Positions 1 to 64,000 of a DNA stretch of 64,000 nucleotides are shown here, piece after piece (within the stretch, counting starts at the first letter, position 1; every line of letters begins with the position of its first letter). Made by a program: the position numbers and the translations under genes. The stretch comes from Acanthosoma haemorrhoidale (lineage: Eukaryota > Arthropoda > Insecta > Hemiptera > Acanthosomatidae), in the NCBI GenBank assembly GCA_930367205.1, contig OV884015.1, positions 83,256,841 through 83,320,840 on the forward strand, given 5' to 3'. Under the pieces are notes generated by a model. It had not been told where the DNA came from and made no database searches. It saw only the letters and a list, made by a program, of their open reading frames with translations.

Positions 1-186
1 GCTATGAAAAATGACTAACAGTTTCTTCCTATATTATGGAAATAAAATATTATTATGTTTGCAAAATATGAGTATGGCAACGTAATCGCTATTATGATAA
101 ATGAGTGAAACGTTACTTTTTGTACAAGGGACATTATCACATTTAAATCTAACTAAAGTCTATCTGGGTAGCTCAAAAAAAAAGTT

Positions 187-198
187 ATTCTAAAGAAT
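187..198 (+). other. Short inverted repeat ATTCT-AA-AGAAT
   Basis: Five-base arms are separated by two bases, directly after the A-run of the long intron, in every unit. It could be chance in AT-rich sequence; no function can be assigned. Confidence 0.4.
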
Positions 199-224
199 CT
201 TTTAAATGCGGTAGGCTTCGGCTT

Positions 225-236
225 CTTTCTAGAAAG
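225..236 (+). other. Perfect 12-bp palindrome CTTTCTAGAAAG
   Basis: The sequence is self-complementary over 12 bases and is preceded by a direct repeat GGCTTCGGCTTC. It contains TTCTAGAA, a two-arm form of a heat-shock-element core, but a third arm is not intact. The TAG of the palindrome is also a good-looking splice acceptor. It recurs in all units. Confidence 0.5.
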
Positions 237-266
237 TTTACAATGAAGATATTGTACAATAGTTAT
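233..266 (+). other. Cryptic splice-flanked segment D, 34 bp, frame broken in the usual unit
   Basis: The segment lies between a pyrimidine-rich acceptor (CTTCGGCTTCTTTCTAG) and a perfect GTAAGT donor. At 34 bp it is not a multiple of three, and phase 0 hits TAG at codon 10. The gap to exon A is 31 bp, shorter than most introns can be, so D and A could hardly both be spliced in. It may be a decoy, a decayed exon or chance. Confidence 0.25.
250..261 (+). other. Perfect 12-bp palindrome TATTGTACAATA
   Basis: It is self-complementary over 12 bases and lies 36-48 bases upstream of exon A in every unit. It survives the 1-bp deletion in units 76, 77, 92 and 93. In unit 39 one arm is altered at 25948 (CAATA to CAACA). 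Confidence 0.5.
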
Positions 267-276
267 GTAAGTAACT
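261..276 (+). other. Small hairpin AGTTA-6-TAACT containing GTAAGT
   Basis: Five-base arms flank a six-base loop TGTAAG. The loop and right arm hold a perfect donor consensus GTAAGT at 267, only 31 bases before exon A. Folding could hide that donor (inference). Confidence 0.35.
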
Positions 277-297
277 CTGTTTTTATTTCTGCTACAG

Positions 298-360
298 CAT
301 CCCTCACATAAAGAAGACAAATTGGACAGCCACTTACATTACATTGGACCGGATGGAAAA
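298..360 (+). CDS. Exon A (unit 1), 21 codons
   Basis: This 63-bp exon lies between the acceptor TTTCTGCTACAG and the donor GTAAGAATA. It reads in phase 0 from His-Pro-Ser-His, through KEDKLDSHLHYIGP, to Asp-Gly-Lys. It is histidine-rich (four of 21) and ends in a Gly-Pro-Asp-Gly turn-like motif. Residues P2, D10, L13, H14, I16 and P18 are the same in exon C when the two are aligned end to end. The exon recurs at offset 297 of every unit with few changes: Lys5Glu in units 28 and 52, Asp10Glu in unit 38, Gly17Arg in units 59 and 62, and a silent GGA to GGT at codon 17 in units 8, 18, 31, 34, 35, 48, 94 and 95. No copy has a stop or an indel. Confidence 0.78.
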
Positions 361-3300
361 GTAAGAATAAAAATATTTTTTGTAGTTCAAAATCAGTTAA
401 CGTGTACATTGTTATTATGAATTTTTATCAATTTCAGCTGAAATCTCTCGAAGAGGAGTTGAAGGTAATTATAAATGGTTACATTCAGTTACTGTTTTAT
501 GAGAGTTTTCTGTAGTATATTTTTTTCTAATCGGCTTTAAATGTAGGTCCCGGCGGCTGTGATTAAGGAGATGGATACATATCTGCATTTCATTGCACCA
601 ACGACCATGGTAAGTAGGAATTTGTATGTACACGTTGTATGTTGCAAATTCAAATTCAGTGTTTTTGTAACTATTTGCTATGAAAAATGACTAACAGTTT
701 CTTCCTATATTATGGAAATAAAATATTATTATGTTTGCAAAATATGAGTATGGCAACGTAATCGCTATTATGATAAATGAGTGAAAAGTTACTTTTTGTA
801 CAAGGGACATTATCACATTTAAATCTAACTAAAGTCTATCTGCGTAGCTCAAAAAAAAAGTTATTCTAAAGAATCTTTTAAATGCGGTAGGCTTCGGCTT
901 CTTTCTAGAAAGTTTACAATGAAGATATTGTACAATAGTTATGTAAGTAACTCTGTTTTTATTTCTGCTACAGCATCCCTCACATAAAGAAGACAAATTG
1001 GACAGCCACTTACATTACATTGGACCGGATGGAAAAGTAAGAATAAAAATATTTTTTGTAGTTCAAAATCAGTTAACGTGTACATTGTTATTATGAATTT
1101 TTATCAATTTCAGCTGAAATCTCTCGAAGAGGAGTTGAAGGTAATTATAAATGGTTACATTCAGTTACTGCTTTATGAGAGTTTTCCGTAGTATATTTTT
1201 TTCTAATCGGCTTTAAATGTAGGTCCCGGCGGCTGTGATTAAGGAGATGGATACATATCTGCATTTCATTGCACCAACGACCATGGTAAGTAGGAATTTG
1301 TATGTACACGTTGTATGTTGCAAATTCAAATTCAGTGTTTTTGTAACTATTTGCTATGAAAAATGACTAACAGTTTCTTCCTATATTATGGAAATAAAAT
1401 ATTATTATGTTTGCAAAATATGAGTATGGCAACGTAATCGCTATTATGATAAATGAGTGAAACGTTACTTTTTGTACAAGGGACATTATCACATTTAAAT
1501 CTAACTAAAGTCTATCTGGGTAGCTCAAAAAAAAAGTTATTCTAAAGAATCTTTTAAATGCGGTAGGCTTCGGCTTCTTTCTAGAAAGTTTACAATGAAG
1601 ATATTGTACAATAGTTATGTAAGTAACTCTGTTTTTATTTCTGCTACAGCATCCCTCACATAAAGAAGACAAATTGGACAGCCACTTACATTACATTGGA
1701 CCGGATGGAAAAGTAAGAATAAAAATATTTTTTGTAGTTCAAAATCAGTTAATGTGTACATTGTTATTATGAATTTTTATCAATTTCAGCTGAAATCTCT
1801 CGAAGAGGAGTTGAAGGTAATTATAAATGGTTACATTCAGTTACTGCTTTATGAGAGTTTTCTGTAGTATATTTTTTTCTAATCGGCTTTAAATGTAGGT
1901 CCCGGCGGCTGTGATTAAGGAGATGGATACATATCTGCATTTCATTGCACCAACGACCATGGTAAGTAGGAATTTGTATGTACACGTTGTATGTTGCAAA
2001 TTCAAATTCAGTGTTTTTGTAACTATTTGCTATGAAAAATGACTAACAGTTTCTTCCTATATTATGGAAATAAAATATTATTATGTTTGCAAAATATGAG
2101 TATGGCAACGTAATCGCTATTATGATAAATGAGTGAAAAGTTACTTTTTGTACAAGGGACATTATCACATTTAAATCTAACTAAAGTCTATCTGCGTAGC
2201 TCAAAAAAAAAGTTATTCTAAAGAATCTTTTAAATGCGGTAGGCTTCGGCTTCTTTCTAGAAAGTTTACAATGAAGATATTGTACAATAGTTATGTAAGT
2301 AACTCTGTTTTTATTTCTGCTACAGCATCCCTCACATAAAGAAGACAAATTGGACAGCCACTTACATTACATTGGACCGGATGGAAAAGTAAGAATAAAA
2401 ATATTTTTTGTAGTTCAAAATCAGTTAACGTGTACATTGTTATTATGAATTTTTATCAATTTCAGCTGAAATCTCTCGAAGAGGAGTTGAAGGTAATTAT
2501 AAATGGTTACATTCAGTTACTGCTTTATGAGAGTTTTCCGTAGTATATTTTTTTCTAATCGGCTTTAAATGTAGGTCCCGGCGGCTGTGATTAAGGAGAT
2601 GGATACATATCTGCATTTCATTGCACCAACGACCATGGTAAGTAGGAATTTGTATGTACACGTTGTATGTTGCAAATTCAAATTCAGTGTTTTTGTAACT
2701 ATTTGCTATGAAAAATGACTAACAGTTTCTTCCTATATTATGGAAATAAAATATTATTATGTTTGCAAAATATGAGTATGGCAACGTAATCGCTATTATG
2801 ATAAATGAGTGAAACGTTACTTTTTGTACAAGGGACATTATCACATTTAAATCTAACTAAAGTCTATCTGGGTAGCTCAAAAAAAAAGTTATTCTAAAGA
2901 ATCTTTTAAATGCGGTAGGCTTCGGCTTCTTTCTAGAAAGTTTACAATGAAGATATTGTACAATAGTTATGTAAGTAACTCTGTTTTTATTTCTGCTACA
3001 GCATCCCTCACATAAAGAAGACAAATTGGACAGCCACTTACATTACATTGGACCGGATGGAAAAGTAAGAATAAAAATATTTTTTGTAGTTCAAAATCAG
3101 TTAATGTGTACATTGTTATTATGAATTTTTATCAATTTCAGCTGAAATCTCTCGAAGAGGAGTTGAAGGTAATTATAAATGGTTACATTCAGTTACTGCT
3201 TTATGAGAGTTTTCTGTAGTATATTTTTTTCTAATCGGCTTTAAATGTAGGTCCCGGCGGCTGTGATTAAGGAGATGGATACATATCTGCATTTCATTGC

Positions 3301-6300
3301 ACCAACGACCATGGTAAGTAGGAATTTGTATGTACACGTTGTATGTTGCAAATTCAAATTCAGTGTTTTTGTAACTATTTGCTATGAAAAATGACTAACA
3401 GTTTCTTCCTATATTATGGAAATAAAATATTATTATGTTTGCAAAATATGAGTATGGCAACGTAATCGCTATTATGATAAATGAGTGAAACGTTACTTTT
3501 TGTACAAGGGACATTATCACATTTAAATCTAACCAAAGTCTATCTGGGTAGCTCAAAAAAAAAGTTATTCTAAAGAATCTTTTAAATGCGGTAGGCTTCG
3601 GCTTCTTTCTAGAAAGTTTACAATGAAGATATTGTACAATAGTTATGTAAGTAACTCTGTTTTTATTTCTGCTACAGCATCCCTCACATAAAGAAGACAA
3701 ATTGGACAGCCACTTACATTACATTGGACCGGATGGAAAAGTAAGAATAAAAATATTTTTTGTAGTTCAAAATCAGTTAACGTGTACATTGTTATTATGA
3801 ATTTTTATCAATTTCAGCTGAAATCTCTCGAAGAGGAGTTGAAGGTAATTATAAATGGTTACATTCAGTTACTGCTTTATGAGAGTTTTCTGTAGTATAT
3901 TTTTTTCTAATCGGCTTTAAATGTAGGTCCCGGCGGCTGTGATTAAGGAGATGGATACATATCTGCATTTCATTGCACCAACGACCATGGTAAGTAGGAA
4001 TTCGTATGTACACGTTGTATGTTGCAAATTCAAATTCAGTGTTTTTGTAACTATTTGCTATGAAAAATGACTAAAAGTTTCTTCTTATATTATGGAAATA
4101 AAATATTATTATGTTTACAAAATATGAGTATGGCAACGTAATCGCTATTATGATAAATGAGTGAAACGTTACTTTTTGTACAAGGGACATTATCACATTT
4201 AAATCTAACTAAAGTCTATCTGGGTAGCTCAAAAAAAAAGTTATTCTAAAGAATCTTTTAAATGCGGTAGGCTTCGGCTTCTTTCTAGAAAGTTTACAAT
4301 GAAGATATTGTACAATAGTTATGTAAGTAACTCTGTTTTTATTTCTGCTACAGCATCCCTCACATAAAGAAGACAAATTGGACAGCCACTTACATTACAT
4401 TGGACCGGATGGAAAAGTAAGAATAAAAATATTTTTTGTAGTTCAAAATCAGTTAACGTGTACATTGTTATTATGAATTTTTATCAATTTCAGCTGAAAT
4501 CTCTCGAAGAGGAGTTGAAGGTAATTATAAATGGTTACATTCAGTTACTGCTTTATGAGAGTTTTCTGTAGTATATTTTTTTCTAATCGGCTTTAAATGT
4601 AGGTCCCGGCGGCTGTGATTAAGGAGATGGATACATATCTGCATTTCATTGCACCAACGACCATGGTAAGTAGGAATTTGTATGTACACGTTGTATGTTG
4701 CAAATTCAAATTCAGTGTTTTTGTAACTATTTGCTATGAAAAATGACTAACAGTTTCTTCCTATATTATGGAAATAAAATATTATTATGTTTGCAAAATA
4801 TGAGTATGGCAACGTAATCGCTATTATGATAAATGAGTGAAACGTTACTTTTTGTACAAGGGACATTATCACATTTAAATCTAACTAAAGTCTATCTGGG
4901 TAGCTCAAAAAAAAAGTTATTCTAAAGAATCTTTTAAATGCGGTAGGCTTCGGCTTCTTTCTAGAAAGTTTACAATGAAGATATTGTACAATAGTTATGT
5001 AAGTAACTCTGTTTTTATTTCTGCTACAGCATCCCTCACATAAAGAAGACAAATTGGACAGCCACTTACATTACATTGGTCCGGATGGAAAAGTTAGAAT
5101 AAAAATATTTTTTGTAGTTCAAAATCAGTTAACGTGTACATTGTTATTATGAATTTTTATCAATTTCAGCTGAAATCTCTCGAAGAGGAGTTGAAGGTAA
5201 TTATAAATGGTTACATTCAGTTACTGCTTTATGAGAGTTTTCTGTAGTATATTTTTTTCTAATCGGCTTTAAATGTAGGTCCCGGCGGCTGTGATTAAGG
5301 AGATGGATACATATCTGCATTTCATTGCACCAACGACCATGGTAAGTAGGAATTTGTATGTACACGTTGTATGTTGCAAATTCAAATTCAGTGTTTTTGT
5401 AACTATTTGCTATGAAAAATGACTAACAGTTTCTTCCTATATTATGGAAATAAAATATTATTATGTTTGCAAAATATGAGTATGGCAACGTAATCGCTAT
5501 TATGATAAATGAGTGAAAAGTTACTTTTTGTACAAGGGACATTATCACATTTAAATCTAACTAAAGTCTATCTGGGTAGCTCAAAAAAAAAGTTATTCTA
5601 AAGAATCTTTTAAATGCGGTAGGCTTCGGCTTCTTTCTAGAAAGTTTACAATGAAGATATTGTACAATAGTTATGTAAGTAACTCTGTTTTTATTTCTGC
5701 TACAGCATCCCTCACATAAAGAAGACAAATTGGACAGCCACTTACATTACATTGGACCGGATGGAAAAGTAAGAATAAAAATATTTTTTGTAGTTCAAAA
5801 TCAGTTAACGTGTACATTGTTATTATGAATTTTTATCAATTTCAGCTGAAATCTCTCGAAGAGGAGTTGAAGGTAATTATAAATGGTTACATTCAGTTAC
5901 TGCTTTATGAGAGTTTTCTGTAGTATATTTTTTTCTAATCGGCTTTAAATGTAGGTCCCGGCGGCTGTGATTAAGGAGATGGATACATATCTGCATTTCA
6001 TTGCACCAACGACCATGGTAAGTAGGAATTTGTATGTACACGTTGTATGTTGCAAATTCAAATTCAGTGTTTTTGTAACTATTTGCTATGAAAAATGACT
6101 AACAGTTTCTTCCTATATTATGGAAATAAAATATTATTATGTTTGCAAAATATGAGTATGGCAACGTAATCGCTATTATGATAAATGAGTGAAACGTTAC
6201 TTTTTGTACAAGGGACATTATCACATTTAAATCTAACTAAAGTCTATCTGGGTAGCTCAAAAAAAAAGTTATTCTAAAGAATCTTTTAAATGCGGTAGGC

Positions 6301-45300: not shown

Positions 45301-48300
45301 AAAATGACTAACAGTTTCTTCCTATATTATGGAAATAAAATATTATTATGTTTGCAAAATATGAGTATGGCAATGTAATCGCTATTATGATAAATGAGTG
45401 AAACGTTACTTTTTGTACAAGGGACATTATCACATTTAAATCTAACTAAAGTCTATCTGGGTAGCTCAAAAAAAAAGTTATTCTAAAGAATCTTTTAAAT
45501 GCGGTAGGCTTCGGCTTCTTTCTAGAAAGTTTACAATGAAGATATTGTACAATAGTTATGTAAGTAACTCTGTTTTTATTTCTGCTACAGCATCCCTCAC
45601 ATAAAGAAGACAAATTGGACAGCCACTTACATTACATTGGACCGGATGGAAAAGTAAGAATAAAAATATTTTTTGTAGTTCAAAATCAGTTAACGTGTAC
45701 ATTGTTATTATGAATTTTTATCAATTTCAGCTGAAATCTCTCGAAGAGGAGTTGAAGGTAATTATAAATGGTTACATTCAGTTACTGCTTTATGAGAGTT
45801 TTCTGTAGTATATTTTTTTCTAATCGGCTTTAAATGTAGGTCCCGGCGGCTGTGATTAAGGAGATGGATACATATCTGCATTTCATTGCACCAACGACCA
45901 TGGTAAGTAGGAATTTGTATGTACACGTTGTATGTTGCAAATTCAAATTCAGTGTTTTTGTAACTATTTGCTATGAAAAATGACTAACAGTTTCTTCCTA
46001 TATTATGGAAATAAAATATTATTATGTTTGCAAAATATGAGTATGGCAACGTGATCGCTATTATGATAAATGAGTGAAAAGTTACTTTTTGTACGAGGGA
46101 CATTATCACATTTAAATCTAACTAAAGTCTATCTGGGTAGCTCAAAAAAAAAGTTATTCTAAAGAATCTTTTAAATGCGGTAGGCTTCGGCTTCTTTCTA
46201 GAAAGTTTACAATGAAGATATTGTACAATAGTTATGTAAGTAACTCTGTTTTTATTTCTGCTACAGCATCCCTCACATAAAGAAGACAAATTGGACAGCC
46301 ACTTACATTACATTGGACCGGATGGAAAAGTAAGAATAAAAATATTTTTTGTAGTTCAAAATCAGTTAACGTGTACATTGTTATTATGAATTTTTATCAA
46401 TTTCAGCTGAAATCTCTCGAAGAGGAGTTGAAGGTAATTATAAATGGTTACATTCAGTTACTGCTTTATGAGAGTTTTCTGTAGTATATTTTTTTCTAAT
46501 CGGCTTTAAATGTAGGTCCCGGCGGCTGTGATTAAGGAGATGGATACATATCTGCATTTCATTGCACCAACGACCATGGTAAGTAGGAATTTGTATGTAC
46601 ACGTTGTATGTTGCAAATTCAAATTCAGTGTTTTTGTAACTATTTGCTATGAAAAATGACTAACAGTTTCTTCCTATATTATGGAAATAAAATATTATTA
46701 TGTTTGCAAAATATGAGTATGGCAACGTAATCGCTATTATGATAAATGAGTGAAACGTTACTTTTTGTACAAGGGACATTATCACATTTAAATCTAACCA
46801 AAGTCTATCTGGGTAGCTCAGAAAAAAAGTTATTCTAAAGAATCTTTTAAATGCGGTAGGCTTCGGCTTCTTTCTAGAAAGTTTACAATGAAGATATTGT
46901 ACAATAGTTATGTAAGTAACTCTGTTTTTATTTCTGCTACAGCATCCCTCACATAAAGAAGACAAATTGGACAGCCACTTACATTACATTGGACCGGATG
47001 GAAAAGTAAGAATAAAAATATTTTTTGTAGTTCAAAATCAGTTAACGTGTACATTGTTATTATGAATTTTTATCAATTTCAGCTGAAATCTCTCGAAGAG
47101 GAGTTGAAGGTAATTATAAATGGTTACATTCAGTTACTGATTTATGAGAGTTTTCTGTAGTATATTTTTTTCTAATCGGCTTTAAATGTAGGTCCCGGCG
47201 GCTGTGATTAAGGAGATGGATACATATCTGCATTTCATTGCACCAACGACCATGGTAAGTAGGAATTTGTATGTACACGTTGTATGTTGCAAATTCAAAT
47301 TCAGTGTTTTTGTAACTATTTGCTATGAAAAATGACTAACAGTTTCTTCCTATATTATGGAAATAAAATATTATTATGTTTGCAAAATATGAGTATGGCA
47401 ACGTAATCGCTATTATGATAAATGAGTGAAACGTTACTTTTTGTACAAGGGACATTATCACATTTAAATCTAACTAAAGTCTATCTGGGTAGCTCAAAAA
47501 AAAAGTTATTCTAAAGAATCTTTTAAATGCGGTAGGCTTCGGCTTCTTTCTAGAAAGTTTACAATGAAGATATTGTACAATAGTTATGTAAGTAACTCTG
47601 TTTTTATTTCTGCTACAGCATCCCTCACATAAAGAAGACAAATTGGACAGCCACTTACATTACATTGGACCGGATGGAAAAGTAAGAATAAAAATATTTT
47701 TTGTAGTTCAAAATCAGTTAACGTGTACATTGTTATTATGAATTTTTATCAATTTCAGCTGAAATCTCTCGAAGAGGAGTTGAAGGTAATTATAAATGGT
47801 TACATTCAGTTACTGCTTTATGAGAGTTTTCCGTAGTATATTTTTTTCTAATCGGCTTTAAATGTAGGTCCCGGCGGCTGTGATTAAGGAGATGGATACA
47901 TATCTGCATTTCATTGCACCAACGACCATGGTAAGTAGGAATTTGTATGTACACGTTGTATGTTGCAAATTCAAATTCAGTGTTTTTGTAACTATTTGCT
48001 ATGAAAAATGACTAACAGTTTCTTCCTATATTATGGAAATAAAATATTATTATGTTTGCAAAATATGAGTATGGCAACGTAATCGCTATTATGATAAATG
48101 AGTGAAACGTTACTTTTTGTACAAGGGACATTATCACATTTAAATCTAACCAAAGTCTATCTGGGTAGCTCAAAAAAAAAGTTATTCTAAAGAATCTTTT
48201 AAATGCGGTAGGCTTCGGCTTCTTTCTAGAAAGTTTACAATGAAGATATTGTACAATAGTTATGTAAGTAACTCTGTTTTTATTTCTGCTACAGCATCCC

Positions 48301-51300
48301 TCACATAAAGAAGACAAATTGGACAGCCACTTACATTACATTGGACCGGATGGAAAAGTAAGAATAAAAATATTTTTTGTAGTTCAAAATCAGTTAACGT
48401 GTACATTGTTATTATGAATTTTTATCAATTTCAGCTGAAATCTCTCGAAGAGGAGTTGAAGGTAATTATAAATGGTTACATTCAGTTACTGCTTTATGAG
48501 AGTTTTCTGTAGTATATTTTTTTCTAATCGGCTTTAAATGTAGGTCCCGGCGGCTGTGATTAAGGAGATGGATACATATCTGCATTTCATTGCACCAACG
48601 ACCATGGTAAGTAGGAATTTGTATGTACACGTTGTATGTTGCAAATTCAAATTCAGTGTTTTTGTAACTATTTGCTATGAAAAATGACTAACAGTTTCTT
48701 CCTATATTATGGAAATAAAATATTATTATGTTTGCAAAATATGAGTATGGCAACGTGATCGCTATTATGATAAATGAGTGAAAAGTTACTTTTTGTACGA
48801 GGGACATTATCACATTTAAATCTAACTAAAGTCTATCTGGGTAGCTCAAAAAAAAAGTTATTCTAAAGAATCTTTTAAATGCGGTAGGCTTCGGCTTCTT
48901 TCTAGAAAGTTTACAATGAAGATATTGTACAATAGTTATGTAAGTAACTCTGTTTTTATTTCTGCTACAGCATCCCTCACATAAAGAAGACAAATTGGAC
49001 AGCCACTTACATTACATTGGACCGGATGGAAAAGTAAGAATAAAAATATTTTTTGTAGTTCAAAATCAGTTAACGTGTACATTGTTATTATGAATTTTTA
49101 TCAATTTCAGCTGAAATCTCTCGAAGAGGAGTTGAAGGTAATTATAAATGGTTACATTCAGTTACTGCTTTATGAGAGTTTTCTGTAGTATATTTTTTTC
49201 TAATCGGCTTTAAATGTAGGTCCCGGCGGCTGTGATTAAGGAGATGGATACATATCTGCATTTCATTGCACCAACGACCATGGTAAGTAGGAATTTGTAT
49301 GTACACGTTGTATGTTGCAAATTCAAATTCAGTGTTTTTGTAACTATTTGCTATGAAAAATGACTAACAGTTTCTTCCTATATTATGGAAATAAAATATT
49401 ATTATGTTTGCAAAATATGAGTATGGCAACGTAATCGCTATTATGATAAATGAGTGAAACGTTACTTTTTGTACAAGGGACATTATCACATTTAAATCTA
49501 ACTAAAGTCTATCTGGGTAGCTCAAAAAAAAAGTTATTCTAAAGAATCTTTTAAATGCGGTAGGCTTCGGCTTCTTTCTAGAAAGTTTACAATGAAGATA
49601 TTGTACAATAGTTATGTAAGTAACTCTGTTTTTATTTCTGCTACAGCATCCCTCACATAAAGAAGACAAATTGGACAGCCACTTACATTACATTGGACCG
49701 GATGGAAAAGTAAGAATAAAAATATTTTTTGTAGTTCAAAATCAGTTAACGTGTACATTGTTATTATGAATTTTTATCAATTTCAGCTGAAATCTCTCGA
49801 AGAGGAGTTGAAGGTAATTATAAATGGTTACATTCAGTTACTGCTTTATGAGAGTTTTCTGTAGTATATTTTTTTCTAATCGGCTTTAAATGTAGGTCCC
49901 GGCGGCTGTGATTAAGGAGATGGATACATATCTGCATTTCATTGCACCAACGACCATGGTAAGTAGGAATTTGTATGTACACGTTGTATGTTGCAAATTC
50001 AAATTCAGTGTTTTTGTAACTATTTGCTATGAAAAATTACTAACAGTTTCTTCCTATATTATGGAAATAAAATATTATTATGTTTGCAAAATATGAGTAT
50101 GGCAACGTAATCGCTATTATGATAAATGAGTGAAAAGTTACTTTTTGTACAAGGGACATTATCACATTTAAATCTAACTAAAGTCTATCTGGGTAGCTCA
50201 AAAAAAAAGTTATTCTAAAGAATCTTTTAAATGCGGTAGGCTTCGGCTTCTTTCTAGAAAGTTTACAATGAAGATATTGTACAATAGTTATGTAAGTAAC
50301 TCTGTTTTTATTTCTGCTACAGCATCCCTCACATAAAGAAGACAAATTGGACAGCCACTTACATTACATTGGACCGGATGGAAAAGTAAGAATAAAAATA
50401 TTTTTTGTAGTTCAAAATCAGTTAACGTGTACATTGTTATTATGAATTTTTATCAATTTGAGCTGAAATCTCTCGAAGAGGAGTTGAAGGTAATTATAAA
50501 TGGTTACATTCAGTTACTGCTTTATGAGAGTTTTCTGTAGTATATTTTTTTCTAATCGGCTTTAAATGTAGGTCCCGGCGGCTGTGATTAAGGAGATGGA
50601 TACATATCTGCATTTCATTGCACCAACGACCATGGTAAGTAGGAATTTGTATGTACACGTTGTATGTTGCAAATTCAAATTCAGTGTTTTTGTAACTATT
50701 TGCTATGAAAAATGACTAACAGTTTCTTCCTATATTATGGAAATAAAATATTATTATGTTTGCAAAATATGAGTATGGCAACGTAATCGCTATTATGATA
50801 AATGAGTGAAAAGTTACTTTTTGTACAAGGGACATTATCACATTTAAATCTAACTAAAGTCTATCTGGGTAGCTCAAAAAAAAAGTTATTCTAAAGAATC
50901 TTTTAAATGCGGTAGGCTTCGGCTTCTTTCTAGAAAGTTTACAATGAAGTATTGTACAATAGTTATGTAAGTAACTCTGTTTTTATTTCTGCTACAGCAT
51001 CCCTCACATAAAGAAGACAAATTGGACAGCCACTTACATTACATTGGACCGGATGGAAAAGTAAGAATAAAAATATTTTTTGTAGTTCAAAATCAGTTAA
51101 CGTGTACATTGTTATTATGAATTTTTATCAATTTCAGCTGAAATCTCTCGAAGAGGAGTTGAAGTTAATTATAAATGGTTACATTCAGTTACTGCTTTAT
51201 GAGAGTTTTCAGTAGTATATTTTTTTCTAATCGGCTTTAAATGTAGGTCCCGGCGGCTGTGATTAAGGAGATGGATACATATCTGCATTTCATTGCACCA

Positions 51301-54300
51301 ACGACCATGGTAAGTAGGAATTTGTATGTACACGTTGTATGTTGCAAATTCAAATTCAGTGTTTTTGTAACTATTTGCTATGAAAAATGACTAACAGTTT
51401 CTTCCTATATTATGGAAATAAAATATTATTATGTTTGCAAAATATGAGTATGGCAACGTAATCGCTATTATGATAAATGAGTGAAAAGTTACTTTTTGTA
51501 CAAGGGACATTATCACATTTAAATCTAACTAAAGTCTATCTGGGTAGCTCAAAAAAAAAGTTATTCTAAAGAATCTTTTAAATGCGGTAGGCTTCGGCTT
51601 CTTTCTAGAAAGTTTACAATGAAGTATTGTACAATAGTTATGTAAGTAACTCTGTTTTTATTTCTGCTACAGCATCCCTCACATAAAGAAGACAAATTGG
51701 ACAGCCACTTACATTACATTGGACCGGATGGAAAAGTAAGAATAAAAATATTTTTTGTAGTTCAAAATCAGTTAACGTGTACATTGTTATTATGAATTTT
51801 TATCAATTTCAGCTGAAATCTCTCGAAGAGGAGTTGAAGTTAATTATAAATGGTTACATTCAGTTACTGCTTTATGAGAGTTTTCTGTAGTATATTTTTT
51901 TCTAATCGGCTTTAAATGTAGGTCCCGGCGGCTGTGATTAAGGAGATGGATACATATCTGCATTTCATTGCACCAACGACCATGGTAAGTAGGAATTTGT
52001 ATGTACACGTTGTATGTTGCAAATTCAAATTCAGTGTTTTTGTAACTATTTGCTATGAAAAATGACTAACAGTTTCTTCCTATATTATGGAAATAAAATA
52101 TTATTATGTTTGCAAAATATGAGTATGGCAACGTAATCGCTATTATGATAAATGAGTGAAACGTTACTTTTTGTACAAGGGACATTATCACATTTAAATC
52201 TAACTAAAGTCTATCTGGGTAGCTCAAAAAAAAAGTTATTCTAAAGAATCTTTTAAATGCGGTAGGCTTCGGCTTCTTTCTAGAAAGTTTACAATGAAGA
52301 TATTGTACAATAGTTATGTAAGTAACTCTGTTTTTATTTCTGCTACAGCATCCCTCACATAAAGAAGACAAATTGGACAGCCACTTACATTACATTGGAC
52401 CGGATGGAAAAGTAAGAATAAAAATATTTTTTGTAGTTCAAAATCAGTTAACGTGTACATTGTTATTATGAATTTTTATCAATTTCAGCTGAAATCTCTC
52501 GAAGAGGAGTTGAAGGTAATTATAAATGGTTACATTCAGTTACTGCTTTATGAGAGTTTTCTGTAGTATATTTTTTTCTAATCGGCTTTAAATGTAGGTC
52601 CCGGCGGCTGTGATTAAGGAGATGGATACATATCTGCATTTCATTGCACCAACGACCATGGTAAGTAGGAATTTGTATGTACACGTTGTATGTTGCAAAT
52701 TCAAATTCAGTGTTTTTGTAACTATTTGCTATGAAAAATGACTAACAGTTTCTTCCTATATTATGGAAATAAAATATTATTATGTTTGCAAAATATGAGT
52801 ATGGCAACGTAATCGCTATTATGATAAATGAGTGAAACGTTACTTTTTGTACAAGGGACATTATCACATTTAAATCTAACTAAAGTCTATCTGGGTAGCT
52901 CAAAAAAAAAGTTATTCTAAAGAATCTTTTAAATGCGGTAGGCTTCGGCTTCTTTCTAGAAAGTTTACAATGAAGATATTGTACAATAGTTATGTAAGTA
53001 ACTCTGTTTTTATTTCTGCTACAGCATCCCTCACATAAAGAAGACAAATTGGACAGCCACTTACATTACATTGGACCGGATGGAAAAGTAAGAATAAAAA
53101 TATTTTTTGTAGTTCAAAATCAGTTAACGTGTACATTGTTATTATGAATTTTTATCAATTTCAGCTGAAATCTCTCGAAGAGGAGTTGAAGGTAATTATA
53201 AATGGTTACATTCAGTTACTGCTTTATGAGAGTTTTCTGTAGTATATTTTTTTCTAATCGGCTTTAAATGTAGGTCCCGGCGGCTGTGATTAAGGAGATG
53301 GATACATATCTGCATTTCATTGCACCAACGACCATGGTAAGTAGGAATTTGTATGTACACGTTGTATGTTGCAAATTCAAATTCAGTGTTTTTGTAACTA
53401 TTTGCTATGAAAAATGACTAACAGTTTCTTCCTATATTATGGAAATAAAATATTATTATGTTTGCAAAATATGAGTATGGCAACGTGATCGCTATTATGA
53501 TAAATGAGTGAAAAGTTACTTTTTGTACGAGGGACATTATCACATTTAAATCTAACTAAAGTCTATCTGGGTAGCTCAAAAAAAAAGTTATTCTAAAGAA
53601 TCTTTTAAATGCGGTAGGCTTCGGCTTCTTTCTAGAAAGTTTACAATGAAGATATTGTACAATAGTTATGTAAGTAACTCTGTTTTTATTTCTGCTACAG
53701 CATCCCTCACATAAAGAAGACAAATTGGACAGCCACTTACATTACATTGGACCGGATGGAAAAGTAAGAATAAAAATATTTTTTGTAGTTCAAAATCAGT
53801 TAACGTGTACATTGTTATTATGAATTTTTATCAATTTCAGCTGAAATCTCTCGAAGAGGAGTTGAAGGTAATTATAAATGGTTACATTCAGTTACTGCTT
53901 TATGAGAGTTTTCTGTAGTATATTTTTTTCTAATCGGCTTTAAATGTAGGTCCCGGCGGCTGTGATTAAGGAGATGGATACATATCTGCATTTCATTGCA
54001 CCAACGACCATGGTAAGTAGGAATTTGTATGTACACGTTGTATGTTGCAAATTCAAATTCAGTGTTTTTGTAACTATTTGCTATGAAAAATGACTAACAG
54101 TTTCTTCCTATATTATGGAAATAAAATATTATTATGTTTGCAAAATATGAGTATGGCAACGTAATCGCTATTATGATAAATGAGTGAAACGTTACTTTTT
54201 GTACAAGGGACATTATCACATTTAAATCTAACCAAAGTCTATCTGGGTAGCTCAGAAAAAAAGTTATTCTAAAGAATCTTTTAAATGCGGTAGGCTTCGG

Positions 54301-57300
54301 CTTCTTTCTAGAAAGTTTACAATGAAGATATTGTACAATAGTTATGTAAGTAACTCTGTTTTTATTTCTGCTACAGCATCCCTCACATAAAGAAGACAAA
54401 TTGGACAGCCACTTACATTACATTGGACCGGATGGAAAAGTAAGAATAAAAATATTTTTTGTAGTTCAAAATCAGTTAACGTGTACATTGTTATTATGAA
54501 TTTTTATCAATTTCAGCTGAAATCTCTCGAAGAGGAGTTGAAGGTAATTATAAATGGTTACATTCAGTTACTGCTTTATGAGAGTTTTCTGTAGTATATT
54601 TTTTTCTAATCGGCTTTAAATGTAGGTCCCGGCGGCTGTGATTAAGGAGATGGATACATATCTGCATTTCATTGCACCAACGACCATGGTAAGTAGGAAT
54701 TTGTATGTACACGTTGTATGTTGCAAATTCAAATTCAGTGTTTTTGTAACTATTTGCTATGAAAAATGACTAACAGTTTCTTCCTATATTATGGAAATAA
54801 AATATTATTATGTTTGCAAAATATGAGTATGGCAACGTAATCGCTATTATGATAAATGAGTGAAACGTTACTTTTTGTACAAGGGACATTATCACATTTA
54901 AATCTAACTAAAGTCTATCTGGGTAGCTCAAAAAAAAAGTTATTCTAAAGAATCTTTTAAATGCGGTAGGCTTCGGCTTCTTTCTAGAAAGTTTACAATG
55001 AAGATATTGTACAATAGTTATGTAAGTAACTCTGTTTTTATTTCTGCTACAGCATCCCTCACATAAAGAAGACAAATTGGACAGCCACTTACATTACATT
55101 GGACCGGATGGAAAAGTAAGAATAAAAATATTTTTTGTAGTTCAAAATCAGTTAACGTGTACATTGTTATTATGAATTTTTATCAATTTCAGCTGAAATC
55201 TCTCGAAGAGGAGTTGAAGGTAATTATAAATGGTTACATTCAGTTACTGCTTTATGAGAGTTTTCCGTAGTATATTTTTTTCTAATCGGCTTTAAATGTA
55301 GGTCCCGGCGGCTGTGATTAAGGAGATGGATACATATCTGCATTTCATTGCACCAACGACCATGGTAAGTAGGAATTTGTATGTACACGTTGTATGTTGC
55401 AAATTCAAATTCAGTGTTTTTGTAACTATTTGCTATGAAAAATGACTAACAGTTTCTTCCTATATTATGGAAATAAAATATTATTATGTTTGCAAAATAT
55501 GAGTATGGCAACGTAATCGCTATTATGATAAATGAGTGAAACGTTACTTTTTGTACAAGGGACATTATCACATTTAAATCTAACCAAAGTCTATCTGGGT
55601 AGCTCAAAAAAAAAGTTATTCTAAAGAATCTTTTAAATGCGGTAGGCTTCGGCTTCTTTCTAGAAAGTTTACAATGAAGATATTGTACAATAGTTATGTA
55701 AGTAACTCTGTTTTTATTTCTGCTACAGCATCCCTCACATAAAGAAGACAAATTGGACAGCCACTTACATTACATTGGACCGGATGGAAAAGTAAGAATA
55801 AAAATATTTTTTGTAGTTCAAAATCAGTTAACGTGTACATTGTTATTATGAATTTTTATCAATTTCAGCTGAAATCTCTCGAAGAGGAGTTGAAGGTAAT
55901 TATAAATGGTTACATTCAGTTACTGCTTTATGAGAGTTTTCTGTAGTATATTTTTTTCTAATCGGCTTTAAATGTAGGTCCCGGCGGCTGTGATTAAGGA
56001 GATGGATACATATCTGCATTTCATTGCACCAACGACCATGGTAAGTAGGAATTTGTATGTACACGTTGTATGTTGCAAATTCAAATTCAGTGTTTTTGTA
56101 ACTATTTGCTATGAAAAATGACTAACAGTTTCTTCCTATATTATGGAAATAAAATATTATTATGTTTGCAAAATATGAGTATGGCAACGTGATCGCTATT
56201 ATGATAAATGAGTGAAAAGTTACTTTTTGTACGAGGGACATTATCACATTTAAATCTAACTAAAGTCTATCTGGGTAGCTCAAAAAAAAAGTTATTCTAA
56301 AGAATCTTTTAAATGCGGTAGGCTTCGGCTTCTTTCTAGAAAGTTTACAATGAAGATATTGTACAATAGTTATGTAAGTAACTCTGTTTTTATTTCTGCT
56401 ACAGCATCCCTCACATAAAGAAGACAAATTGGACAGCCACTTACATTACATTGGACCGGATGGAAAAGTAAGAATAAAAATATTTTTTGTAGTTCAAAAT
56501 CAGTTAACGTGTACATTGTTATTATGAATTTTTATCAATTTCAGCTGAAATCTCTCGAAGAGGAGTTGAAGGTAATTATAAATGGTTACATTCAGTTACT
56601 GCTTTATGAGAGTTTTCTGTAGTATATTTTTTTCTAATCGGCTTTAAATGTAGGTCCCGGCGGCTGTGATTAAGGAGATGGATACATATCTGCATTTCAT
56701 TGCACCAACGACCATGGTAAGTAGGAATTTGTATGTACACGTTGTATGTTGCAAATTCAAATTCAGTGTTTTTGTAACTATTTGCTATGAAAAATGACTA
56801 ACAGTTTCTTCCTATATTATGGAAATAAAATATTATTATGTTTGCAAAATATGAGTATGGCAACGTAATCGCTATTATGATAAATGAGTGAAACGTTACT
56901 TTTTGTACAAGGGACATTATCACATTTAAATCTAACTAAAGTCTATCTGGGTAGCTCAAAAAAAAAGTTATTCTAAAGAATCTTTTAAATGCGGTAGGCT
57001 TCGGCTTCTTTCTAGAAAGTTTACAATGAAGATATTGTACAATAGTTATGTAAGTAACTCTGTTTTTATTTCTGCTACAGCATCCCTCACATAAAGAAGA
57101 CAAATTGGACAGCCACTTACATTACATTGGACCGGATGGAAAAGTAAGAATAAAAATATTTTTTGTAGTTCAAAATCAGTTAACGTGTACATTGTTATTA
57201 TGAATTTTTATCAATTTCAGCTGAAATCTCTCGAAGAGGAGTTGAAGGTAATTATAAATGGTTACATTCAGTTACTGCTTTATGAGAGTTTTCTGTAGTA

Positions 57301-60300
57301 TATTTTTTTCTAATCGGCTTTAAATGTAGGTCCCGGCGGCTGTGATTAAGGAGATGGATACATATCTGCATTTCATTGCACCAACGACCATGGTAAGTAG
57401 GAATTTGTATGTACACGTTGTATGTTGCAAATTCAAATTCAGTGTTTTTGTAACTATTTGCTATGAAAAATGACTAACAGTTTCTTCCTATATTATGGAA
57501 ATAAAATATTATTATGTTTGCAAAATATGAGTATGGCAACGTAATCGCTATTATGATAAATGAGTGAAACGTTACTTTTTGTACAAGGGACATTATCACA
57601 TTTAAATCTAACCAAAGTCTATCTGGGTAGCTCAGAAAAAAAGTTATTCTAAAGAATCTTTTAAATGCGGTAGGCTTCGGCTTCTTTCTAGAAAGTTTAC
57701 AATGAAGATATTGTACAATAGTTATGTAAGTAACTCTGTTTTTATTTCTGCTACAGCATCCCTCACATAAAGAAGACAAATTGGACAGCCACTTACATTA
57801 CATTGGACCGGATGGAAAAGTAAGAATAAAAATATTTTTTGTAGTTCAAAATCAGTTAACGTGTACATTGTTATTATGAATTTTTATCAATTTCAGCTGA
57901 AATCTCTCGAAGAGGAGTTGAAGGTAATTATAAATGGTTACATTCAGTTACTGCTTTATGAGAGTTTTCTGTAGTATATTTTTTTCTAATCGGCTTTAAA
58001 TGTAGGTCCCGGCGGCTGTGATTAAGGAGATGGATACATATCTGCATTTCATTGCACCAACGACCATGGTAAGTAGGAATTTGTATGTACACGTTGTATG
58101 TTGCAAATTCAAATTCAGTGTTTTTGTAACTATTTGCTATGAAAAATGACTAACAGTTTCTTCCTATATTATGGAAATAAAATATTATTATGTTTGCAAA
58201 ATATGAGTATGGCAACGTAATCGCTATTATGATAAATGAGTGAAACGTTACTTTTTGTACAAGGGACATTATCACATTTAAATCTAACTAAAGTCTATCT
58301 GGGTAGCTCAAAAAAAAAGTTATTCTAAAGAATCTTTTAAATGCGGTAGGCTTCGGCTTCTTTCTAGAAAGTTTACAATGAAGATATTGTACAATAGTTA
58401 TGTAAGTAACTCTGTTTTTATTTCTGCTACAGCATCCCTCACATAAAGAAGACAAATTGGACAGCCACTTACATTACATTGGACCGGATGGAAAAGTAAG
58501 AATAAAAATATTTTTTGTAGTTCAAAATCAGTTAACGTGTACATTGTTATTATGAATTTTTATCAATTTCAGCTGAAATCTCTCGAAGAGGAGTTGAAGG
58601 TAATTATAAATGGTTACATTCAGTTACTGCTTTATGAGAGTTTTCCGTAGTATATTTTTTTCTAATCGGCTTTAAATGTAGGTCCCGGCGGCTGTGATTA
58701 AGGAGATGGATACATATCTGCATTTCATTGCACCAACGACCATGGTAAGTAGGAATTTGTATGTACACGTTGTATGTTGCAAATTCAAATTCAGTGTTTT
58801 TGTAACTATTTGCTATGAAAAATGACTAACAGTTTCTTCCTATATTATGGAAATAAAATATTATTATGTTTGCAAAATATGAGTATGGCAACGTAATCGC
58901 TATTATGATAAATGAGTGAAACGTTACTTTTTGTACAAGGGACATTATCACATTTAAATCTAACCAAAGTCTATCTGGGTAGCTCAAAAAAAAAGTTATT
59001 CTAAAGAATCTTTTAAATGCGGTAGGCTTCGGCTTCTTTCTAGAAAGTTTACAATGAAGATATTGTACAATAGTTATGTAAGTAACTCTGTTTTTATTTC
59101 TGCTACAGCATCCCTCACATAAAGAAGACAAATTGGACAGCCACTTACATTACATTGGACCGGATGGAAAAGTAAGAATAAAAATATTTTTTGTAGTTCA
59201 AAATCAGTTAACGTGTACATTGTTATTATGAATTTTTATCAATTTCAGCTGAAATCTCTCGAAGAGGAGTTGAAGGTAATTATAAATGGTTACATTCAGT
59301 TACTGCTTTATGAGAGTTTTCTGTAGTATATTTTTTTCTAATCGGCTTTAAATGTAGGTCCCGGCGGCTGTGATTAAGGAGATGGATACATATCTGCATT
59401 TCATTGCACCAACGACCATGGTAAGTAGGAATTTGTATGTACACGTTGTATGTTGCAAATTCAAATTCAGTGTTTTTGTAACTATTTGCTATGAAAAATG
59501 ACTAACAGTTTCTTCCTATATTATGGAAATAAAATATTATTATGTTTGCAAAATATGAGTATGGCAACGTGATCGCTATTATGATAAATGAGTGAAAAGT
59601 TACTTTTTGTACGAGGGACATTATCACATTTAAATCTAACTAAAGTCTATCTGGGTAGCTCAAAAAAAAAGTTATTCTAAAGAATCTTTTAAATGCGGTA
59701 GGCTTCGGCTTCTTTCTAGAAAGTTTACAATGAAGATATTGTACAATAGTTATGTAAGTAACTCTGTTTTTATTTCTGCTACAGCATCCCTCACATAAAG
59801 AAGACAAATTGGACAGCCACTTACATTACATTGGACCGGATGGAAAAGTAAGAATAAAAATATTTTTTGTAGTTCAAAATCAGTTAACGTGTACATTGTT
59901 ATTATGAATTTTTATCAATTTCAGCTGAAATCTCTCGAAGAGGAGTTGAAGGTAATTATAAATGGTTACATTCAGTTACTGCTTTATGAGAGTTTTCTGT
60001 AGTATATTTTTTTCTAATCGGCTTTAAATGTAGGTCCCGGCGGCTGTGATTAAGGAGATGGATACATATCTGCATTTCATTGCACCAACGACCATGGTAA
60101 GTAGGAATTTGTATGTACACGTTGTATGTTGCAAATTCAAATTCAGTGTTTTTGTAACTATTTGCTATGAAAAATGACTAACAGTTTCTTCCTATATTAT
60201 GGAAATAAAATATTATTATGTTTGCAAAATATGAGTATGGCAACGTAATCGCTATTATGATAAATGAGTGAAACGTTACTTTTTGTACAAGGGACATTAT

Positions 60301-63300
60301 CACATTTAAATCTAACTAAAGTCTATCTGGGTAGCTCAAAAAAAAAGTTATTCTAAAGAATCTTTTAAATGCGGTAGGCTTCGGCTTCTTTCTAGAAAGT
60401 TTACAATGAAGATATTGTACAATAGTTATGTAAGTAACTCTGTTTTTATTTCTGCTACAGCATCCCTCACATAAAGAAGACAAATTGGACAGCCACTTAC
60501 ATTACATTGGACCGGATGGAAAAGTAAGAATAAAAATATTTTTTGTAGTTCAAAATCAGTTAACGTGTACATTGTTATTATGAATTTTTATCAATTTCAG
60601 CTGAAATCTCTCGAAGAGGAGTTGAAGGTAATTATAAATGGTTACATTCAGTTACTGCTTTATGAGAGTTTTCTGTAGTATATTTTTTTCTAATCGGCTT
60701 TAAATGTAGGTCCCGGCGGCTGTGATTAAGGAGATGGATACATATCTGCATTTCATTGCACCAACGACCATGGTAAGTAGGAATTTGTATGTACACGTTG
60801 TATGTTGCAAATTCAAATTCAGTGTTTTTGTAACTATTTGCTATGAAAAATTACTAACAGTTTCTTCCTATATTATGGAAATAAAATATTATTATGTTTG
60901 CAAAATATGAGTATGGCAACGTAATCGCTATTATGATAAATGAGTGAAAAGTTACTTTTTGTACAAGGGACATTATCACATTTAAATCTAACTAAAGTCT
61001 ATCTGGGTAGCTCAAAAAAAAAGTTATTCTAAAGAATCTTTTAAATGCGGTAGGCTTCGGCTTCTTTCTAGAAAGTTTACAATGAAGATATTGTACAATA
61101 GTTATGTAAGTAACTCTGTTTTTATTTCTGCTACAGCATCCCTCACATAAAGAAGACAAATTGGACAGCCACTTACATTACATTGGACCGGATGGAAAAG
61201 TAAGAATAAAAATATTTTTTGTAGTTCAAAATCAGTTAACGTGTACATTGTTATTATGAATTTTTATCAATTTGAGCTGAAATCTCTCGAAGAGGAGTTG
61301 AAGGTAATTATAAATGGTTACATTCAGTTACTGCTTTATGAGAGTTTTCTGTAGTATATTTTTTTCTAATCGGCTTTAAATGTAGGTCCCGGCGGCTGTG
61401 ATTAAGGAGATGGATACATATCTGCATTTCATTGCACCAACGACCATGGTAAGTAGGAATTTGTATGTACACGTTGTATGTTGCAAATTCAAATTCAGTG
61501 TTTTTGTAACTATTTGCTATGAAAAATGACTAACAGTTTCTTCCTATATTATGGAAATAAAATATTATTATGTTTGCAAAATATGAGTATGGCAACGTAA
61601 TCGCTATTATGATAAATGAGTGAAAAGTTACTTTTTGTACAAGGGACATTATCACATTTAAATCTAACTAAAGTCTATCTGGGTAGCTCAAAAAAAAAGT
61701 TATTCTAAAGAATCTTTTAAATGCGGTAGGCTTCGGCTTCTTTCTAGAAAGTTTACAATGAAGTATTGTACAATAGTTATGTAAGTAACTCTGTTTTTAT
61801 TTCTGCTACAGCATCCCTCACATAAAGAAGACAAATTGGACAGCCACTTACATTACATTGGACCGGATGGAAAAGTAAGAATAAAAATATTTTTTGTAGT
61901 TCAAAATCAGTTAACGTGTACATTGTTATTATGAATTTTTATCAATTTCAGCTGAAATCTCTCGAAGAGGAGTTGAAGTTAATTATAAATGGTTACATTC
62001 AGTTACTGCTTTATGAGAGTTTTCAGTAGTATATTTTTTTCTAATCGGCTTTAAATGTAGGTCCCGGCGGCTGTGATTAAGGAGATGGATACATATCTGC
62101 ATTTCATTGCACCAACGACCATGGTAAGTAGGAATTTGTATGTACACGTTGTATGTTGCAAATTCAAATTCAGTGTTTTTGTAACTATTTGCTATGAAAA
62201 ATGACTAACAGTTTCTTCCTATATTATGGAAATAAAATATTATTATGTTTGCAAAATATGAGTATGGCAACGTAATCGCTATTATGATAAATGAGTGAAA
62301 AGTTACTTTTTGTACAAGGGACATTATCACATTTAAATCTAACTAAAGTCTATCTGGGTAGCTCAAAAAAAAAGTTATTCTAAAGAATCTTTTAAATGCG
62401 GTAGGCTTCGGCTTCTTTCTAGAAAGTTTACAATGAAGTATTGTACAATAGTTATGTAAGTAACTCTGTTTTTATTTCTGCTACAGCATCCCTCACATAA
62501 AGAAGACAAATTGGACAGCCACTTACATTACATTGGACCGGATGGAAAAGTAAGAATAAAAATATTTTTTGTAGTTCAAAATCAGTTAACGTGTACATTG
62601 TTATTATGAATTTTTATCAATTTCAGCTGAAATCTCTCGAAGAGGAGTTGAAGTTAATTATAAATGGTTACATTCAGTTACTGCTTTATGAGAGTTTTCT
62701 GTAGTATATTTTTTTCTAATCGGCTTTAAATGTAGGTCCCGGCGGCTGTGATTAAGGAGATGGATACATATCTGCATTTCATTGCACCAACGACCATGGT
62801 AAGTAGGAATTTGTATGTACACGTTGTATGTTGCAAATTCAAATTCAGTGTTTTTGTAACTATTTGCTATGAAAAATGACTAACAGTTTCTTCCTATATT
62901 ATGGAAATAAAATATTATTATGTTTGCAAAATATGAGTATGGCAACGTAATCGCTATTATGATAAATGAGTGAAAAGTTACTTTTTGTACAAGGGACATT
63001 ATCACATTTAAATCTAACTAAAGTCTATCTGGGTAGCTCAAAAAAAAAGTTATTCTAAAGAATCTTTTAAATGCGGTAGGCTTCGGCTTCTTTCTAGAAA
63101 GTTTACAATGAAGATATTGTACAATAGTTATGTAAGTAACTCTGTTTTTATTTCTGCTACAGCATCCCTCACATAAAGAAGACAAATTGGACAGCCACTT
63201 ACATTACATTGGTCCGGATGGAAAAGTTAGAATAAAAATATTTTTTGTAGTTCAAAATCAGTTAACGTGTACATTGTTATTATGAATTTTTATCAATTTC

Positions 63301-64000: not shown

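Follow-up and report, generated by a model that had tools for sequence, protein, structure and literature searches.

A tandem array of near-identical three-exon cassettes, possibly the interior of a giant repeat-protein gene

The stretch of DNA analysed here, 64,000 bases in all and referred to throughout as the window, is occupied from end to end by one tandem array whose 676-bp unit carries three small pieces resembling exons: A and C, of 63 bp each, and between them B, of 27 bp. We read it, with a slight balance of probability in favour, as the interior of a eukaryotic repeat-protein gene in which a cassette of three phase-0 exons has been amplified at least 94-fold, a eukaryotic origin being what splicing in the manner read here would lead one to expect. 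A single giant expressed gene is thus the leading reading of the sequence, though an unproven one.

The layout of the array, as exemplified by its first unit and by its last pieces, is as follows.

1..64000, plus strand: three-exon cassettes of 676 bp in tandem throughout the window, both ends of the array lying outside it
298..360, plus strand: first predicted exon A, 63 bp, phase 0, HPSHKEDKLDSHLHYIGPDGK; preceded by AG and followed by GT in all 95 copies
361..437, plus strand: first A-B intron, 77 bp, GTAAGA...TTTCAG
438..464, plus strand: first predicted exon B, 27 bp, phase 0, LKSLEEELK; GT after in 90 of 94 complete copies
465..546, plus strand: first B-C intron, 82 bp, GTAATT...AAATGTAG
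547..609, plus strand: first predicted exon C, 63 bp, phase 0, VPAAVIKEMDTYLHFIAPTTM, probably paralogous to exon A; preceded by AG and followed by GT in all 94 copies
610..973, plus strand: first long C-A intron, 364 bp, GTAAGT...CTACAG, with an AATAAA inside
63839-63901, plus strand: last copy of exon A, one of 95 in the window
63979-64000, plus strand: 95th exon B, cut by the window end (22 of its 27 bases)

The array is single, head-to-tail and unbroken, with a period of 676 bp (675-677) across all 64,000 bases. An ungapped scan of both strands placed successive A copies 676 bp apart in 89 of 94 cases, 675 bp apart in four and 677 bp apart in one, and recovered 95 copies of A, 94 of B and 94 of C, all on the plus strand, in the strict order ABC...A and with none on the reverse strand. 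These make 283 complete pieces plus one cut B, in agreement with the at least 284 exons of 27 or 63 bp counted in the initial annotation, which had also placed both ends of the gene outside the stretch; indeed, the window opens inside a long intron and closes inside B, and no array edge lies within the 64 kb. Exact DNA copies account for 82 of the 95 A, 93 of the 94 B and 87 of the 94 C pieces. The 94 complete A-to-A units share a mean pairwise identity of 99.48% (a mean difference of 3.5 positions) and fall into 45 distinct haplotypes, the consensus sequence being carried by 22 units.

Splice context is almost uniform along the array, with AG preceding all 283 pieces and GT following 279, the four exceptions being B donors in which GT has become TT. 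With a slash marking the predicted exon end, the donor of A among the 94 complete units reads AAA/GTAAGA in 88 and GTTAGA in six, that of B reads AAG/GTAATT in 90 and TTAATT in four, and that of C reads ATG/GTAAGT in 93 and AGG/GTAAGT in one. The acceptors are of three kinds, the first being CTGCTACAG in 93 units and CTGCCACAG in one, the second ATCAATTTCAG in 92 and TTTGAG in two, and the third TTTAAATGTAG in all 94. G+C content is 0.41, 0.44 and 0.49 in the exons and 0.21, 0.27 and 0.29 in the introns. The lengths of 63, 27 and 63 are multiples of three, and A and C are both open in phase 0 alone, the phase to which the initial annotation had assigned every exon. No stop or indel occurs in the 283 pieces, and the 94 complete units, when joined, encode an uninterrupted 4,794 residues, which the final A together with the partial B extends to the repeat protein of about 4,820 residues that had been proposed.

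Additional candidate features were considered and rejected. In the long intron, a 108-bp open piece followed by a GTAAGT donor (unit positions 538-645) might pass for a fourth exon, but 5 of the 94 units have indels in it. A decayed second B in the same intron reached a best score of 12, against a shuffle mean of 11.2 and a 95th percentile of 16, and a third copy of A or C there reached a best A- or C-like score of 3. On the reverse strand, the longest open stretch is 73 codons and there are no exon copies.

The read-through of C bears on a different arrangement, in which each 676-bp unit, or a few of them, would be its own transcription or trans-splicing unit and the array would encode many short proteins. 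In 92 of 94 units, the frame of C extends 26 codons past the donor before a stop is reached, with an AATAAA following at unit position 420, which favours such small genes, and yet the stop is lost in the other two units and the GTAAGT that follows C in 94 of 94 units, a textbook donor, would have to be ignored. Moreover, no ATG is present in A or, as far as its stop, in the unspliced frame immediately preceding A, and the A-B intron holds another AATAAA (position 69), as chance would place it in AT-rich DNA. Taking both sides together, we consider tandem small genes improbable. The read-through region (610-722 and its equivalents) is, separately, a possible alternative terminal exon in each unit.

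Evidence on whether the pieces arose as exons comes from the protein likeness between A and C. Open micro-exon candidates are by themselves not beyond chance: 400 simulated units with the same dinucleotide make-up contained a mean of 2.7 pieces of the form AG, 21-90 bp open, GTRA (5-95%: 0-7), and the real unit contains six. A and C, however, were picked by their splice signals and not by likeness, and HPSHKEDKLDSHLHYIGPDGK and VPAAVIKEMDTYLHFIAPTTM form a gapless protein alignment, clearest at residues 9-18, with a BLOSUM62 sum of 31 in register that none of 100,000 shuffles reached. Over the first 60 bases, the A-C frame scores 32 and the remaining five frames score between -16 and 15. When open 63-nt segments of the unit, from both strands, were paired without overlap, seven of the 61,598 pairs scored at least 31, and each of the seven is A against C in the A-C frame, shifted downstream by 0 to 27 nt. 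Since slid windows that reach into the introns, including the shared donor bases, score up to 38, this pair test backs the frame and not the exact exon ends, which rest on the splice signals.

At the DNA level, A and C agree at 26 of 63 bases, or at 9, 11 and 6 of 21 by codon position, numbers that are small and carry no significance test, and four of their six identical residues are written with different codons. The exon DNA of the pair aligns slightly better than shuffles do (P 0.012), while the alignments of the 77-bp flanks of A and C are not beyond shuffles (P 0.53 and 0.18, 500 each). There is good evidence, and we regard the conclusion as well supported, that A and C were coding exons in origin. 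The simplest reading is that a 63-bp exon of 21 residues was duplicated long before the array existed, that the two copies diverged under protein-level constraint while their introns changed beyond recognition, and that the cassette was amplified later. The claim that the pieces are exons accordingly stands on firmer ground than when it was first made, by a test new to this follow-up; the A-C likeness bears on past coding and is silent on the array today.

Under the leading reading, three symmetric exons of phase 0, which measure 63+27+63 bp and encode 51 residues, would form a cassette multiplied by unequal exchange, and the pre-mRNA would be spliced A-B-C-A-B-C and so on into one mRNA encoding a long repeat protein, perhaps secreted or structural. 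In favour of this reading are the strict order and splice dinucleotides of the pieces, their freedom from stops and indels, the A-C protein likeness with diverged DNA, the higher G+C of the exons and the blocks of units repeated in order. Because all exons are multiples of three in one phase, the gain or loss of a cassette, or the skipping of an exon, would keep the frame, so that array length and splice choice could change without breaking the protein, which would permit runaway expansion and many isoforms. Likewise, a lost B splice site would not disturb the frame, provided that B was then left out of the mRNA. The predicted 51-residue unit is rich in Lys, Leu, His and Glu, has no cysteine and has a calculated pI of about 5.9, and 94 consensus copies have a calculated mass of about 545 kDa. 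Its segments LKSLEEELKVP and IKEMDTYLHFI have helical moments of 0.46, and two short helices per unit are plausible.

Variation among the copies speaks to the main rival of this reading, which holds that a three-exon piece of a micro-exon-type gene was tandemly amplified into a gene-derived satellite, homogenised by unequal exchange, mostly non-coding and little transcribed, if at all, while the parent gene, which would use few cassettes, would lie elsewhere or at one edge of the array. Of the 677 alignment columns, 40 are variable, 8 of them among the 153 exon sites and 32 among the 523 intron sites (two indel columns included; Fisher P 0.85), and two of the eight exon changes are synonymous, against a neutral expectation of 24%. 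As exon and intron variation are alike and synonymous changes are at the neutral level, no current selection is visible, as the satellite reading would have it. The anatomy given in the initial annotation is exact; the single gene of hundreds of exons that it proposed is a putative one, and gains no sign of selection from comparison among the copies. It counts on the same side that the loss of B donors has been tolerated, that 99.5% identity and repeated blocks of units are what satellites would show, and that the array runs on without an end in 64 kb; a long head-to-tail array of near-identical units, one mark of a satellite, is what the window contains (94 units, 99.48% identity).

Against a satellite stands the fact that 283 of 283 pieces are open and in frame, although this weighs little: the chance probability of no stop among the eight exon changes is 0.74, so open frames alone are not evidence of selection within the array, which is too young or too homogenised for them to show it. 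The long C-A intron holds 24 of the 40 variable columns and the sole indels, at two sites (one unit with +1 and four with -1), and the exons hold none, which also points away from a satellite in numbers too few to test. Nothing in the window separates an expressed gene from a gene-derived satellite, and we give the latter an appreciable probability, roughly that of a third of the whole. The commonest variant of the array lies in the same long intron, at unit position 490, where 27 of the 94 units carry A and 67 carry C, scattered along the array.

Weighed against the repeat-protein gene itself are the splice sites that have changed, namely the four of 94 B donors destroyed and the two B acceptors and six A donors altered. 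On the same side are the commonness of short open AG-GT pieces in simulated units, the slight likeness of A and C in their DNA, the high scores of windows slid into the introns, the lack of visible selection, and the finding of neither a first nor a last exon in the window nor a credited relative in the collections searched. The destroyed donors lie at the following copies of B.

51138..51164, plus strand: exon B with donor TT in place of GT
51813-51839, plus strand: the same
61952-61978, plus strand: the same
62627-62653, plus strand: the same

All four result from G>T at unit position 168, in units 75, 76, 91 and 92 (starts 50998, 51673, 61812 and 62487), that is, in a pair of adjacent units and in the pair corresponding to it 16 units downstream. 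The B acceptor altered to TTTGAG was observed in the units starting at 50323 and 61137. That altered B sites occur in neighbouring units, and again at the corresponding place 16 units along, suggests a minor lineage of units whose splicing may pass over B. As for A, GTTAGA replaces GTAAGA at unit position 66 in the six of 94 complete units and also after the last A (63902 on), and in these units GTTAGA is accompanied by a synonymous change at position 51 of exon A.

The spacing of 16 units recurs in a larger repeated block, as listed here.

46267..52348, plus strand: nine-unit block, units 68-76, repeated 16 units downstream
57081..63162, plus strand: second copy of the nine-unit block, units 84-92

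Within each of the nine unit pairs there is at most one difference, and non-consensus variants are present in eight of the nine; an eight-unit block, units 65-72 and 76-83, is also near-identical in order. Near-identical repeats are the classic hard case for an assembler, and the nine-unit blocks could represent an error in which the repeat was expanded or rearranged, the true array being much shorter or differently ordered. The 45 haplotypes among 94 units, with variants mixed along the array, argue against such an artefact, to which we assign a very low probability, and the blocks are more readily taken as the expected trace of unequal exchange or segmental duplication inside the array.

Searches for relatives covered collections in which few eukaryotic sequences of this type are to be expected. 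With queries of 3, 8 and 18 joined copies (153, 408 and 918 aa), protein searches that scored a capped number of candidates (7,993, 7,999 and 7,990) gave no match at E up to 10, in a database that may hold few spliced eukaryotic proteins, so that the absence is weak, and a Pfam scan returned seven families, all below cut-off. Among PDB entries, nine sequences appeared at E up to 10, the best being Scone-E (E 1e-5), from short matches summed over repeats with no single stretch significant, and they are not taken as homology; the Scone and Cake proteins are designed propellers. A degenerate pattern for exon A had no hits in viral contigs or GTDB genomes, and one for exon C had none in viral contigs; 2,028 bases had no match among phages, and no RNA family was found at E up to 1 in window positions 1-2400. 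Tandem Repeats Finder reported nothing, its longest period of 500 being shorter than the 676-bp unit. In the literature, which was available in part and with subscription papers mostly outside its coverage, no such array is described among the matches listed, nor is there among them a precedent with anything like 94 near-identical three-exon cassettes.

If expressed, the array would put splicing fidelity to an extreme test in nature, with hundreds of identical donors and acceptors in series, and the splicing machinery would have to cope with hundreds of indistinguishable splice sites. It would show how symmetric exons permit runaway frame-safe gene growth, and would link micro-exon genes with satellite-like arrays. 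As unequal exchange would never break the frame, protein length would be a fast-evolving, polymorphic trait. Even if mostly silent, the array would represent a coding cassette turning into a satellite, since the protein-level likeness of its exons appears older than the array.

Set beside known systems, whose sources are cited here for the portions available, the array is, if the gene reading is true, an extreme variant of tandem-exon and micro-exon genes and not a new kind. Among the nearest in kind are the micro-exon genes (MEGs) of flatworms, in schistosomes and tapeworms, which have runs of many short symmetric exons in multiples of three, whose skipping keeps the frame (PMC7653826, PMC5825161, PMC10526429; such genes are also treated in PMC3961193 and PMC3723592). 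Those of S. mansoni have 10-20 very short exons, mostly of 15 bp, with long introns (PMC10526429), and in two MEG-26 genes of this species a protein motif recurs, as does a pattern of exon lengths (PMC5825161). By one structural definition (PMC7653826), an MEG has at least four consecutive exons below 70 nt and divisible by three, which describes the 283 predicted exons if they are spliced. The definition also asks for at least seven exons in the gene, at least half of them micro-exons; the predicted exons would agree with this as far as the window goes, the ends of the gene lying outside it. Flatworm MEGs have in addition an N-terminal signal peptide and a secreted product, and the first exon, where a signal peptide would be encoded, lies outside the window. 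The array differs in that its at least 283 predicted exons, of 27 or 63 bp with introns of 77, 82 and 364 bp, are repeated almost exactly, and the likeness is structural only, the array being set beside MEGs by description and not by sequence. The best reading by analogy is that the array would work like a micro-exon gene with frame-safe expansion of a cassette.

A tandem exon array encoding a repeat protein was reportedly described in 1988, and that report on tandemly repeated exons would, by its title alone, be the closest precedent in kind. The bicycle genes of aphids come next, and resemble the array in having many small internal exons of one phase: as described in the available part of the source, these exons are almost all of phase 2 and encode CYC motifs, with about 17 exons per gene on average, and the genes are highly divergent among themselves, whereas the pieces of the array are copies of each other (PMC9168663). 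A bicycle gene was rejected as an identity for the array, as only phase 0 is open in A and C and the 51-residue unit encoded by the exons in the window lacks cysteine. The initial annotation was rightly cautious in seeing no sequence tie to schistosome micro-exon genes or to bicycle genes, and for the latter a tie is contradicted.

Exon-bearing units multiplied within a gene are also found in LPA, whose kringle IV-2 VNTR has a 5.6-kb unit present in 1-40 units (PMC11462820), and in Piccolo, where one exon has expanded to 8-16 copies (PMC3484663), both as given in the portions of these sources at hand. They are alike in this respect, but their units are larger or of a single exon and their copies fewer, as compared with three tiny exons per 676 bp in at least 94 copies.

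Titin offers a likeness of scale, being a huge repeat protein made from hundreds of exons. Its domains have diverged from one another. As stated in the accessible part of one source, titin (connectin) counts 363 exons over 283 kb, described there as the highest exon number (PMC12198301). That the array belongs to one gene of at least 283, and perhaps many hundreds, of near-identical micro-exons, which would rival or pass titin in exon number, strikes us as a real possibility that falls somewhat short of an even chance; unlike titin, the array would draw its 283 predicted exons in 64 kb from one near-identical cassette.
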